Source: Flavobacterium sp. N502540
GTDB lineage: Bacteria; Bacteroidota; Bacteroidia; Flavobacteriales; Flavobacteriaceae
Reading direction: 5' to 3'
Assembly (NCBI RefSeq): GCF_025947365.1
Contig: NZ_CP110012.1
Coordinates: 1,302,001-1,366,000 of the forward strand
DNA length: 64,000 nucleotides
In this document: in pieces, positions 6,927 through 10,700 of the stretch
Layout: every line of letters begins with the position of its first letter
Position numbering within the stretch: the stretch's first letter is position 1
Program-made: the position numbers and the translations under genes
The notes under the pieces: model-generated
Told to the model about the DNA's origin: nothing
Databases searched by the model: none
What the model saw: the letters and a program-made list of their open reading frames with translations, nothing else

Positions 6927-7667
6927 TTACAAAGTCAAAAGACTTGCTTTATAATTTTTGGATACCGGAAGTTCTATTTGAGTAAGAAGGATCGTATTTG
7001 AATTCCTCCAGGATTTAAAATGCGTTGGATTTATCAAATGCGAACGATGAATTTGAAGCAAAAAATCAAAATCTTCCTGCACTTTTTTGAGTGAAGAACG
7101 AATCAGTTTTGCCCGAAGCTGATTATTTTCCAAATAAAATATCTCGACATAATTTTGCGCATTCGAAACACAAACCAAATCTGCTTTTTTGATTTTTAAA
7201 AAATCTAATTTGTTTTCTCCTTTAATAACCAAAAAATCCTCTTTTACCGGAATCAGTTTAAGCAAATATCTCCTCGCCAAAACAATTACAGGAGTTAAAA
7301 TCAGCACTACTTTGATAAAGATAATCGAGAAAAATGCAGTAAAACTATATCCTCCGTTCAAAATTGGACTTTTATAATAGGTGTAAGTTCCAAAAAGATA
7401 AATCAAATAAAAGAAAACTATAGTTGCGATTTCTAAACTGATATTCCATTTTGATCTCTTCGCGTAAATATTCTTTTGAACAAATCCGACAATTGAATAA
7501 CATAAAAATGCCAAAACACTAAAACCTAAACTAATTAAAAGCCAGGCTTTAAAATTTATCGTTCCGTCGTCAAAAGGTCTTATGATGAAAGCAAAAACAA
7601 ATAGCCAAACACTAATTAGCGCGCCAACTATTAAATGATGCTTTATCGACGTATTTAATTGCTGCAT
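6927..7667 (-). CDS. Membrane-anchored LytTR family transcriptional regulator
   Basis: The N-terminal 140 residues form four hydrophobic helices (for example LIVGALISVWLFVFAFII and AFFSIIFIKVVLILTPVIV). The C-terminal 100 residues match the LytTR DNA-binding domain: a beta-rich stretch (LVCVSNAQNYVEIFY), the helix RAKLIRSSLKKVQEDF, and the signature segment LLQIHRSHLINPTHF with the usual IHRSHLIN-like motif, ending in LPVSKNYKASLLTL. It has no receiver domain, so it probably senses a membrane or envelope signal directly rather than through a kinase (inference). The acetyltransferase gene lies one base upstream, so the two are probably one transcript. Confidence 0.88.
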   Translation of the reverse strand: MQQLNTSIKHHLIVGALISVWLFVFAFIIRPFDDGTINFKAWLLISLGFSVLAFLCYSIVGFVQKNIYAKRSKWNISLEIATIVFFYLIYLFGTYTYYKSPILNGGYSFTAFFSIIFIKVVLILTPVIVLARRYLLKLIPVKEDFLVIKGENKLDFLKIKKADLVCVSNAQNYVEIFYLENNQLRAKLIRSSLKKVQEDFDFLLQIHRSHLINPTHFKSWRNSNTILLTQIELPVSKNYKASLLTL

Positions 7668-7668
7668 C

Positions 7669-8106
7669 TTATCGGTAGATCGTAAACTTATTATGACTTA
7701 AAGTAAACCCAAGATTTTCGTAAATCGCGACATTCTCTGCTCGTCTTTTATTTGTGGTCACCTCAATACTTTTTAAATTATGCTGTTCTGCAAAATCTAC
7801 AACCTCATTTATCAATAACCTGCCAACCCCTTTCCCGCGATATTTCAGATGAATAAAAAACTCCTGAATCTCCCCCACCAATCCACAATGATGCAAAAGA
7901 TTTTGGGTATGAAAACTAATAAAACCTAAACCTTCTGTTTCGCTTTCGGCAATCAGATAGAGATTTTTCGGGTTTGAAATATTCTCACTGAAGATCGTTT
8001 CGAAAATTTCAAAATCTAAAACTTCATTTTCGAGTTCGCAGATGGCTTTGTAAACGAAGTCCAGATCTTGTTTTTCTATTTTTCTAATTTTAATATTTGA
8101 TTTCAT
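7669..8106 (-). CDS. GNAT family N-acetyltransferase
   Basis: A 145-residue single-domain acetyltransferase. The acetyl-CoA pyrophosphate-binding motif A is clear (HLKYRGKGVGRLLINEV, around residues 87-103), preceded by the beta-strand EIQEFFI. The C-terminal KSIEVTTNKRRAENVAIYENLGF is motif B, with the typical A-x-x-x-Y-E-x-x-G-F ending. The substrate cannot be deduced. It is one base from the LytTR gene and in the same direction. Confidence 0.88.
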   Translation of the reverse strand: MKSNIKIRKIEKQDLDFVYKAICELENEVLDFEIFETIFSENISNPKNLYLIAESETEGLGFISFHTQNLLHHCGLVGEIQEFFIHLKYRGKGVGRLLINEVVDFAEQHNLKSIEVTTNKRRAENVAIYENLGFTLSHNKFTIYR

Positions 8107-8134: not shown

Positions 8135-8782
8135 TTAATACATTGGCGGAAGCTTTCCACCATTGTTAAAGATCTTTTTTAACTCTTCAGAATCTGCTAA
8201 CCATTCAATCGTTATAAATCTTGAACAATCATTTTTTAATTCATTAGACCAATCTATTAAAATAGCTGCATTATCCTTTTTAATTTCGTCTTTAGCAAAT
8301 TGATATGTTTTGTTAAAATATGCTGCTCCTTCTCCTCTCAGATCAAAAGAAACATACTTTGTTTTTGAAAAAACTGCACATAAGGAAAGTCGTTTTCTCT
8401 CACTGGTATCAAGTTTTTTTATTTTGTCTTTATCAGTAAAACTATCGACTTCAAAAATTCTCGGTACTGAGTTTTTTAGATCCGCATTTCTTTTTAAATA
8501 CCCGCCCACACTCATCGGATTAAATATTCTTTTTAATGATGATTCTTCGATTGGTGCTGCAAAAGTCAGTGCTTTTATTACTTTCACATTCTCATGATGT
8601 GCTTTTCCCGCAAAAATAGCAACCAACTGCTCCTTTAAATCATTAAAATGAGTTCCTCCTCCTAAATAAATAATAACCAATTCTCCTTCTCTTAACTCAA
8701 AAGGCGGTATAAAATAATGATCGGTTTTAATTCCTTTACTATCAATTATAAGCTCATTCATTTTATCAGAATAAATATTCAT
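8135..8782 (-). CDS. Degenerate ABC-ATPase-like protein, probably catalytically dead
   Basis: No family name is obvious, but the 215-residue sequence follows an ABC nucleotide-binding domain from end to end with its catalytic residues replaced. ELREGELVIIYLGGGTHFND (residues 29-48) lies where GEIVGLLGPNGAGKST is expected, without the GKS/T of Walker A. TSERKRLSL (126-134) replaces SGGQRQRLSL. YVSFDLRG (143-150) sits at Walker B without the glutamate. AAILIDWSNELKNDCSRFITIE (172-193) lies at the H-loop, without the histidine. The start at 8782 overlaps the upstream gene by 17 bases; a second ATG at 8761 would leave a 4-base gap. Translational coupling suggests the two products act together. 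The fold is my inference from motif order and spacing; remote homology search was not possible. Confidence 0.7.
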   Translation of the reverse strand: MNIYSDKMNELIIDSKGIKTDHYFIPPFELREGELVIIYLGGGTHFNDLKEQLVAIFAGKAHHENVKVIKALTFAAPIEESSLKRIFNPMSVGGYLKRNADLKNSVPRIFEVDSFTDKDKIKKLDTSERKRLSLCAVFSKTKYVSFDLRGEGAAYFNKTYQFAKDEIKKDNAAILIDWSNELKNDCSRFITIEWLADSEELKKIFNNGGKLPPMY

Positions 8783-10115
8783 TCAAACCAAGACGCTCAA
8801 ATTTAACCTTGTATTTTTGAACGTAGTTGTTCCACTCCTCTTGATTTTTATAAACAGAAAAAGCATATTCAACTGTCTCCTTACTAAAATGATTCCCAAA
8901 AATATTCTCTAAATATTGAATTCCTGAATCAATCACTTCTTTTAAAACCATTCCTTTATCAATTCCGCTTTGTTTACAGGCTTTGTCAAGCCAAAGACCT
9001 TTTCCAATTTTCACATATTCTATCAGAAGACTAGCTGTAATAAATAGAGAAGGAACATCATTAATATCTGGTTCGTGTTTTCCATTTTTAAAAACCAATA
9101 CGATCAATTCTTCTGAATAATATTCTTCCGGAATAAATCGCAGCATTGTACCGCTTTGGGCAGCTTTAAAGGAAAGTTCTTTTGTGATCCGTTCATCAGG
9201 AATGACCTGAAGCGCAAAACCATCTTTAGTTACTAATTTTTCGCAGCGTTCAGCTGTTACTAAATCCTGGTGAACAAACGGCAGAGCATGAAATGTACTA
9301 TTCAACGCCAGAGTACAGAGCTCTTCCGTTTTAAATTCCATCGGAACCAATTTAAGATCTCTATAATTTGCCAAAACACGTTCACGCCAGTATTCATAAG
9401 TTTTTACAGGAGGATTATTTTGTTGGAGCACTAATTCTCCTCTTGCCAAATCCCGTTCTAATTCTTCAAATGTTTCAATCAGCGGATTATCCAATAATTT
9501 CCGAAGTTCTTTCGACATAATTTCCTCATCGGTTTCGTCGTCATATTCACATTCATTCTGGGGCTCCGTATCATCAGCTCTGTCATTATAGTAAAACAGC
9601 TTACTTTTTCTTTCTGAAAATGTTGTATTGTGATCTGTCACTATAAAAACAGGCGCTTCTATTAAACCTGAACAATTAAAACTGCCATGATTGTAAAAAG
9701 TCATAACCACTTCTTTAGCCACGACATTTCCATTTATCTGAACATTAGCCCCGCCTAATAACAAACTTTGACAATTCACATTTCCGCTTACGAAAACATA
9801 CGGTCCATAATCACCTTCGGCATTGATAATAGATCCGGTTGTAAAGAGATCACCATCGATCAATACACCTTCAATTCTTATTTCCTCAATCCTTTTTATT
9901 GGAAGATTCAACAAACCAGCGAGTCCTTTTTTCTCTTTATCTTCGTACAGATCCAGATAAAAATTCCCTTCAAAATTTACTTCGCCATTGGCAACTACAA
10001 AATAATCGCTGTCTTCCCAATCCTCAAAATAATCGAACTTTTCATCTTCTGTTAAAAAGGGATAATTCTTTTTTATTTCTGCTATGGTAATAAGTTTAAA
10101 ATTGGGAGTCTGCAT
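8766..10115 (-). CDS. Beta-helix (polymer-forming-like) protein with degenerate 23-residue repeats
   Basis: A 449-residue cytoplasmic protein (no signal peptide). The middle N-terminal part (about 85-165) has the short-period pattern of bactofilin-like right-handed beta-helices, with recurrent V-x-G-N-V and V-x-I-N-G-x-V steps (VFVSGNVNCQSLLLGGANVQINGNVVAKEV). An acidic linker follows. Residues about 265-385 hold roughly five degenerate helical repeats of 23-25 residues of the type TEELCTLALNS, TAERCEKLVTKDGFALQVIP, TKELSFKAAQSGTMLRFIP, SEELIVLVFKNG, resembling DUF4116-style repeats. I do not know a function. It is translated just ahead of the pseudo-ABC protein, with overlapping ends. Confidence 0.75.
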   Translation of the reverse strand: MQTPNFKLITIAEIKKNYPFLTEDEKFDYFEDWEDSDYFVVANGEVNFEGNFYLDLYEDKEKKGLAGLLNLPIKRIEEIRIEGVLIDGDLFTTGSIINAEGDYGPYVFVSGNVNCQSLLLGGANVQINGNVVAKEVVMTFYNHGSFNCSGLIEAPVFIVTDHNTTFSERKSKLFYYNDRADDTEPQNECEYDDETDEEIMSKELRKLLDNPLIETFEELERDLARGELVLQQNNPPVKTYEYWRERVLANYRDLKLVPMEFKTEELCTLALNSTFHALPFVHQDLVTAERCEKLVTKDGFALQVIPDERITKELSFKAAQSGTMLRFIPEEYYSEELIVLVFKNGKHEPDINDVPSLFITASLLIEYVKIGKGLWLDKACKQSGIDKGMVLKEVIDSGIQYLENIFGNHFSKETVEYAFSVYKNQEEWNNYVQKYKVKFERLGLNEYLF

Positions 10116-10304: not shown

Positions 10305-10700
10305 ATGAGCACAGCAAAACCAAAACATATCGGCCGAAACATAAGCCGAATACGAGAATTGAGAGATATGAAGCAGGAAGCTCTTGCACAGGCAATCGGT
10401 ACAACCCAACAATCTATCTCTATTATTGAAGGAAGCGAAAGCGTTGACGACGAAAAACTTAAAAAAATCGCCGAAGCTTTAGGCGTACCTGCCGAAGTAA
10501 TCAGGAATTTTTCGGAAGAAGCTGTTTTTAATATTATTGGGAATACTGCAGACAATACTTCTTCAGTAGTTAGTTTTGGATGTACCTTTAATCCCTTCGA
10601 TAAACTTCTTGAAGTTGTCGAAAAGAATGAAAAACTTTACGAAAGATTAGTTGAAGCTGAAAGGGAAAAAGTAGTTCTTTTGGAGAAACTATTGAAATAG
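10305..10700 (+). CDS. XRE family helix-turn-helix regulator
   Basis: A 131-residue regulator. The Cro/C1-type HTH spans about residues 8-65 (IGRNISRIRELRDMKQEALAQAIGTTQQSISIIEG, with the QxxLAxxxGxxQxxIS pattern). The C-terminal 35 residues form a likely coiled coil (LLEVVEKNEKLYERLVEAEREKVVLLEKLL) suited to dimerisation. The start at 10305 is required to keep the first HTH helix. It stands alone between the divergently read beta-helix gene and the convergent RelA/SpoT gene, and is followed by a bidirectional terminator. Proteins of this shape are common in Flavobacterium, often as orphan regulators. Confidence 0.9.
   Translation: MSTAKPKHIGRNISRIRELRDMKQEALAQAIGTTQQSISIIEGSESVDDEKLKKIAEALGVPAEVIRNFSEEAVFNIIGNTADNTSSVVSFGCTFNPFDKLLEVVEKNEKLYERLVEAEREKVVLLEKLLK

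Follow-up and report, generated by a model that had tools for sequence, protein, structure and literature searches.

A degenerate ABC nucleotide-binding domain family and its optional bactofilin-like neighbour in a variable locus of Flavobacterium

Gene A, its fold and its lost motifs

Two adjoining genes on the minus strand of a 64,000-nucleotide (nt) stretch of the Flavobacterium sp. N502540 genome, called the window below in its whole length, are the subject of this report: gene A, coding for a protein of 215 amino acids (aa), and its partner gene B, coding for one of 449 aa. Both open reading frames (ORFs) lie where an earlier reading of the bare sequence had placed them, B at 10115-8766 and A at 8782-8135, and the features of the locus are collected in Table 1. 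That sequence-only reading had taken A for an ATP-binding cassette (ABC) nucleotide-binding domain (NBD) with inactive motifs, and had named a widely conserved adjacency to B as support to look for. Its fold call on A is right, its conserved pairing is not, and A is a catalytically dead, free-standing ABC domain family.

Table 1. Features of the A/B locus, in positions of the window
Feature	Position	Strand	Remarks
Gene A, stand-alone degenerate ABC NBD	8135..8782	-	ORF, 215 aa; 208 aa if counted from 8761, the family-supported start
Former Walker A strand, loop and helix of A, residues 33-59, GELVIIYLGGGTHFNDLKEQLVAIFAG	8606..8686	-	Aligned to Walker A by hhalign; no G-K-S/T
Former signature helix of A, residues 124-134, LDTSERKRLSL	8381..8413	-	Aligned onto LSGGQxQR
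Former Walker B of A, residues 143-150, YVSFDLRG	8333..8356	-	Asp147 kept, Glu-Pro missing
Former H-loop of A, residues 174-178, ILIDW	8249..8263	-	Residue 177 is Asp in the window protein
B/A junction	8759..8782	-	17-nt overlap from ORF start 8782; family-supported ATG at 8761-8759, 4 nt past the B stop
Gene B, bactofilin-like beta-helix plus helical repeats	8766..10115	-	ORF, 449 aa
Bactofilin-like beta-helix of B, residues 38-159	9639..10004	-	
Helical part of B, residues 240-449, DUF4116-like	8769..9398	-	24-residue period in first half
GNAT acetyltransferase	7669..8106	-	Follows A on the same strand after 28 nt; belongs to the cargo of this variable locus
246-aa gene	6927..7667	-	Same-strand cargo
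XRE/Cro-CI regulator	10305..10700	+	Divergent from B; HTH_3 2.3e-10
RelA/SpoT-domain gene, 375 aa	10862-11989		Beyond the XRE gene; PADLOC candidate match PDC-S33, 8.8e-17

According to its AlphaFold (AF2) model (predicted local distance difference test, pLDDT, 87.1; predicted template modelling score, pTM, 0.84), A folds as an ABC NBD, and 50 of 50 PDB fold matches are ABC-type among the matches listed; an unrelated fold was looked for by structure prediction and not found. The four motif remnants quoted in the sequence-only reading are present in A, and measured against an active ABC ATPase the window protein lacks the Walker A motif, LSGGQ, the Walker B Asp-Glu pair and the H-loop His. These losses are common to the family, as counted over 107 distinct sequences including the A parts of fused proteins, the second copy in the window's own genome (L002) and the distant relative L109: GxxxxGK[ST], LSGG and a catalytic Glu at residue 148 each occur in 0 of the 107. 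Residue 147, at the position of the Walker B Asp, is D in 99 and E in 8 sequences, the Glu-Pro of ABC ATPases faces a gap of two residues in A, and the H-loop residue 177 is D in 94, H in 6, E in 5, T in 1 and Q in 1. Homologues with intact Walker motifs were sought among the family members and none was found. Model, fold matches and motif counts bear out an ABC-NBD fold with inactive motifs. The claim that the spacing of the motifs is kept holds only in part: compared with real NBDs A covers 167 profile columns for 186, with about four extra residues at the P-loop in addition to the gap at Walker B. Letters specific to the family are kept instead, namely KGI[KR]T (92/107), Cys186 (88/107) and Trp194 (92/107).

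By sequence, the kinship of A to ABC ATPases is visible to profiles alone, in two tests that are independent of the AF2 model. Local HH-suite alignment of the A family with 31 ABC domains (30 from the window's genome and one from locus L054) gave a score of 38.6 with a probability of 70% over 161 columns in order. The controls scored 19.3 (reversed profile), 20.3 (best of 30 column shuffles) and 22.6 (highest among 22 unrelated families of the same loci), and because none exceeds 22.6, the profile likeness is more than chance. In a second test, a wider A profile (28 rows) run over 299 genomes of the family returned two genomes with family members, besides weak matches in 27 others (expect value, E, 3e-6 to 9e-4), 25 of which lie in frames of 299-338 aa. 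Six of these 27 loci (L099-L104) were taken for a closer look: all six match the profile again with the HMMER filters off (20.9-27.7 bits) and three (L100-L102) with them on, and a Walker A, a signature-like motif and a Walker B Asp-Glu are present in five, the pattern finding Walker B only in L104. NCBIfam recognises ABC ATPases in all four of L099-L102, where three proteins of 299-300 aa score best, each below cut-off, to the lantibiotic-protection (TIGR03740), DrrA (TIGR01188) and GldA (TIGR03522) models; among the 31 ABC domains, the best scores against A belong to those of L020 and L024 (frames of 300 and 314 aa). As these best scores go to exporter-type ATPases, the ancestor of A was probably an exporter-type NBD. 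A search of the phylum with the A profile matched 11 of 296 genomes, which comprise, beyond members, again G328 and G317, then G541 with a 41-residue match containing internal stops, and L110, an intact ABC ATPase.

Several results weigh against the homology. Forced global hhalign of the A family against the ABC domains is weaker (score 23.9, probability 24.9%), a 5-row ABC family of the L054 type scores only 11.0 against A, and ABC_tran is missing from the Pfam families matched by 39 A members. That score of 11.0 is also why the short ABC family of Bacteroidota found in L054 was dismissed as the source of A. PDB sequence searches with A yielded no ABC assignment, and in scans of Pfam, NCBIfam, PADLOC and PHROG no model names A at its threshold; weak Pfam matches of the family (DUF3369, RTX and others) were set aside as chance, the two of the window protein being below cut-off.

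Strongly diverged lone relatives of A were also seen in other surroundings at L087:4209-4790, L088:4252-4827 and L109:1492-2070, the last a distant one in another genus (E 2e-17), which suggests that the pseudo-ABC family reaches beyond its close homologues. The second A of the window's genome (L002:1498-2106; C1:3414759-3415349) is about 35% identical and keeps a D-loop-like GLDPQG; 63 nt upstream ends a 154-aa gene, the C-terminal part of whose product matches a Type ISP restriction specificity domain (1.4e-8).

Gene B and its junction with A

The sequence-only description of B as a bactofilin-like beta-helix with helical repeats agrees with the fold and repeat evidence. The AF2 model of B (pLDDT 78.1, pTM 0.57) shows the beta-helix core of bactofilins, and many named homologues are annotated as 'polymer-forming cytoskeletal protein'; the Pfam bactofilin profile is not among the matches of B up to E 1. 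The repeat length needs correction from 23 to 24 residues, as over residues 239-360 the autocorrelation is highest at lag 24 and next highest at lag 23, and the predicted helices begin at residues 240, 264, 288, 312 and 335. DUF4116 (PF13475) reaches 18.5 bits in the window B, under the curated cut-off of 24.9, and 28.6 bits, above it, in the fused homologue P0130; PF13475 is precomputed for many B homologues. A passage of PMC8078820 describes a contact-based model of DUF4116 as an alpha-solenoid.

The residues of A ahead of its second Met (M8) are missing in 31 of 39 aligned rows, the window row counted, so that M8 (base 8761) is the family-supported start. The 17-base overlap of the two genes claimed earlier holds for the first ATG of A, and from M8 the gene begins 4 nt after the B stop. 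Junctions could be read at 13 loci and in the window, a 14th locus (L081) having a reversed gene order that yielded none. Given as offsets of the A start relative to the B stop in nt, they take the forms -17/+4 (window, L034, L035), -20/+1 (L048), -8 (L047), -4 (L050, L052, L053, L057, L058, L064, L083) and an in-frame B-A fusion (L049 and L082, which show one and the same region). Where A and B are in contact at all, the contact is thus mostly tight, from -8 to +4 nt counted from the family-supported start. The fused B-A proteins represent at least three different sequences (P0130, 654 aa; P0132, 652 aa; that of L049, 662 aa), and their A parts form one clade (support 96/86), which fits one fusion event. 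One strain carries B, A and a second A under the consecutive locus tags C8C83_2258, 2257 and 2256. Tight junctions and fusion together suggest that A and B work together in some strains. Directly ahead of the fused gene of L049 lie two genes of 160 and 230 aa (L049:2264-3398) with no Pfam match above cut-off, which give the impression of immunity or accessory genes.

Distribution of A and B and the variable locus

In a survey of 199 Flavobacterium genomes, A is present in 23 and B in 18 at E <1e-100 (21 at 1e-5). Named relatives of A come from Flavobacterium and one unplaced Flavobacteriaceae bacterium (56 and 78 proteins, most rows being nameless) and are annotated as 'hypothetical' or 'uncharacterized' proteins. 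As read in the stretches retrieved, the 36 A loci of named genomes fall into 27 of a main type and 9 of a second type, and B belongs to 11 of the former and 0 of the latter.

The main-type loci have both flanks visible in 22 of 27 cases, the other 5 showing one flank before the contig or stretch ends. The flanks are pepP on one side, often accompanied by the XRE regulator, and on the other a putative gene for what we take to be an HMG-CoA synthase; between them stands a changing set of same-strand cargo genes. In the window these cargo genes lie downstream of A; they are the GNAT acetyltransferase gene and other small ones, among them the 246-aa gene, the C-terminal end of whose product is presumably LytTR-like. 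No cognate membrane permease was recognised among the neighbours scanned, the 187-aa and 123-aa cargo genes not having been searched for permease homology. The RelA/SpoT-domain gene beyond the regulator could, by its domain, encode an alarmone-type effector. Relatives of the XRE regulator occur near A-type genes at both locus types, and this family (window 10305-10700 and paralogues) is expanded in large-genome Flavobacterium, with at least 21 matches in three genomes; it may mark accessory loci. With so many matches, neighbourhood is weak evidence, and a special link between XRE regulator and A was rejected.

Whether A and B need each other was judged at the shared site, defining main-type A by a hit of 253 bits or more on the main-type gene (12 genomes) and the address by one of 187 bits or more to the XRE regulator (21 genomes of the genus). 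Co-occurrence there is not above chance. The 21 address genomes divide into 7 with both genes, 1 with A alone, 9 with B alone and 4 with neither (one-sided p = 0.34), and on adding the five genomes in which main-type A or B occurs without an XRE match at this level the numbers become 7, 5, 10 and 4 (p = 0.87). A and B are adjacent in just 7 of the 199 genomes, in one of which (G103) A precedes B; these counts and those of the locus types do not support the widely conserved adjacency that the sequence-only reading had named as a check. Over all 199 genomes, with kinship disregarded and the off-site B of G072 excluded, co-occurrence does give p = 5.5e-6, a figure for which the shared address suffices, without mutual need. 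In a tree of 42 A rows, which carries labels on 30 and omits the broken copies of L035 and L057, the state of lying beside B switches at least 8 times. A and B are thus optional neighbours.

Both genes are under purifying selection, with a median ratio of nonsynonymous to synonymous substitution rates (dN/dS) of 0.26 for A and 0.15 for B, taken as a simple pairwise count over intact copies with non-independent pairs. Broken copies of A exist in F. tructae (L035, a 147-aa frame) and at L057, where the match is split over two frames, and matches with internal stops are found in, e.g., G015, G053, G159 and G191; A is therefore dispensable in some strains.

Possible roles and comparison with known systems

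The explanation we prefer, tentatively and with confidence falling a little short of even, is that A is a non-ATPase binding module that docks on a scaffold formed by B, A and B both belonging to the optional cargo of a variable operon. A would be a stand-alone NBD, probably derived from an exporter-type one, which has given up canonical binding and hydrolysis of ATP and survives as a protein-binding module. B would be a cytoplasmic scaffold, in which a bactofilin-like beta-helix, expected to self-assemble, precedes a DUF4116-like alpha-solenoid. Wherever a strain has the two genes, A would be made directly behind B, presumably from a common transcript, and would dock on it, probably close to the solenoid end at which B and A are joined in the fused proteins. 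The scaffold would then carry pseudo-NBDs, perhaps as dimers, because ABC domains pair, and the operon with its optional A and B would stand beside the XRE regulator.

The strongest competing explanation, which we consider somewhat unlikely, holds that A acts alone or with other partners, and that it sits beside B by accident: the two would be unconnected cargo of a single accessory hot spot, and in so tightly packed a setting genes are readily coupled or fused. It agrees with the absence of B from 16 of the 27 main-type loci and from all 9 of the second type, with the co-occurrence at the shared site, which is not above chance, with the unrelated 154-aa gene 63 nt ahead of the second A of the window's genome, and with the XRE regulator found 67-68 nt before A in 6 of the 10 second-type loci read. 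A natural B-A fusion in at least three sequences, together with four other forms of tight junction, is hard to explain by neighbourhood alone.

That A and B form a conflict module for immunity or against phages, in which the pseudo-NBD would sense or block an invader and B serve as assembly platform, appears improbable. Variable cargo between fixed flanks and patchy presence would suit such a role, and defence genes accompany second-type A genes at 3 of the 9 named loci, with proteins scanned from four loci: Drt2 reverse transcriptases (E about 1e-136) at L060:3326-4876 and L065:2709-4259, and, at L066:3413-5825, a ThsA/ThsB pair of Thoeris type together with a TIR-TM protein. This neighbourhood may be no more than chance, however, and no PADLOC family matches A or B, no toxin was recognised among the few neighbours scanned, and no relatives of A turned up in phage, plasmid and viral collections, nor did A match a PHROG. 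An origin of A in mobile elements was rejected for want of matches in phages, plasmids or viral contigs.

Alternatively, A might still bind a nucleotide or another small ligand in an altered pocket and act as a sensor rather than as a passive binder, which we regard as very doubtful. The Walker B Asp kept in 99/107 sequences and a Lys in 67/107 at the column aligned by hhalign to the Walker A Lys would be in its favour, but GxxxxGK[ST] is gone in 107/107, the same Lys position is Glu in 25/107, second-type members among them, and the AF2 model shows a short loop and a helix that begins at residue 44, ahead of that Lys. A decaying, functionless remnant of an ABC transporter, to which the broken and interrupted copies of A might point, is hardly credible given the dN/dS of the intact copies and the conserved KGI[KR]T, Cys186 and Trp194.

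ABC domains are among the commonest ATPases, and their degenerate forms are known mainly as one half of a functioning transporter. A family that stands alone, has lost every catalytic motif and has kept its fold under purifying selection would be an ABC pseudoenzyme outside transport, and the fusion to a bactofilin-like scaffold points to a testable physical partner of A. It is a speculative and, taken as a whole, unlikely extension that an ABC family abandoning ATP serves as docking module on a bactofilin-type scaffold and as hot-spot cargo, possibly as a scaffold-borne sensor or decoy in bacterial conflicts; it takes in the fact that one of the Flavobacterium hot-spot sites also holds Drt2 and Thoeris genes. 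A literature search at the level of titles and abstract beginnings, in which some queries came back empty and one listing was seen in part, found nothing on the A-B pair or the A family, in line with the sequence-only reading, to which no described system with this pair was known.

Among known systems, the bactofilins (Thermus thermophilus 6ria, 6rib) resemble B in the beta-helix of residues 38-159 and differ from it by lacking its long added helical part, as well as by their Pfam profile, which does not match B. The DUF4116 repeats (PF13475) resemble its helical repeats, the window B scoring below their curated cut-off. The NBDs of ABC exporters (TIGR03740, TIGR01188, TIGR03522) have fold and order of elements in common with A, which differs from them in the missing Walker A, signature and catalytic Glu and in having no cognate permease recognised beside it. 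A parallel to the loss itself is provided by ABC transporters with one degenerate nucleotide site, such as heterodimeric exporters, CFTR and TAP. In these, as in A, the NBD is kept after the loss of catalytic residues; however, their degenerate domain remains attached to a transporter with a single degenerate site, whereas A is a single-domain protein from which every motif is gone.
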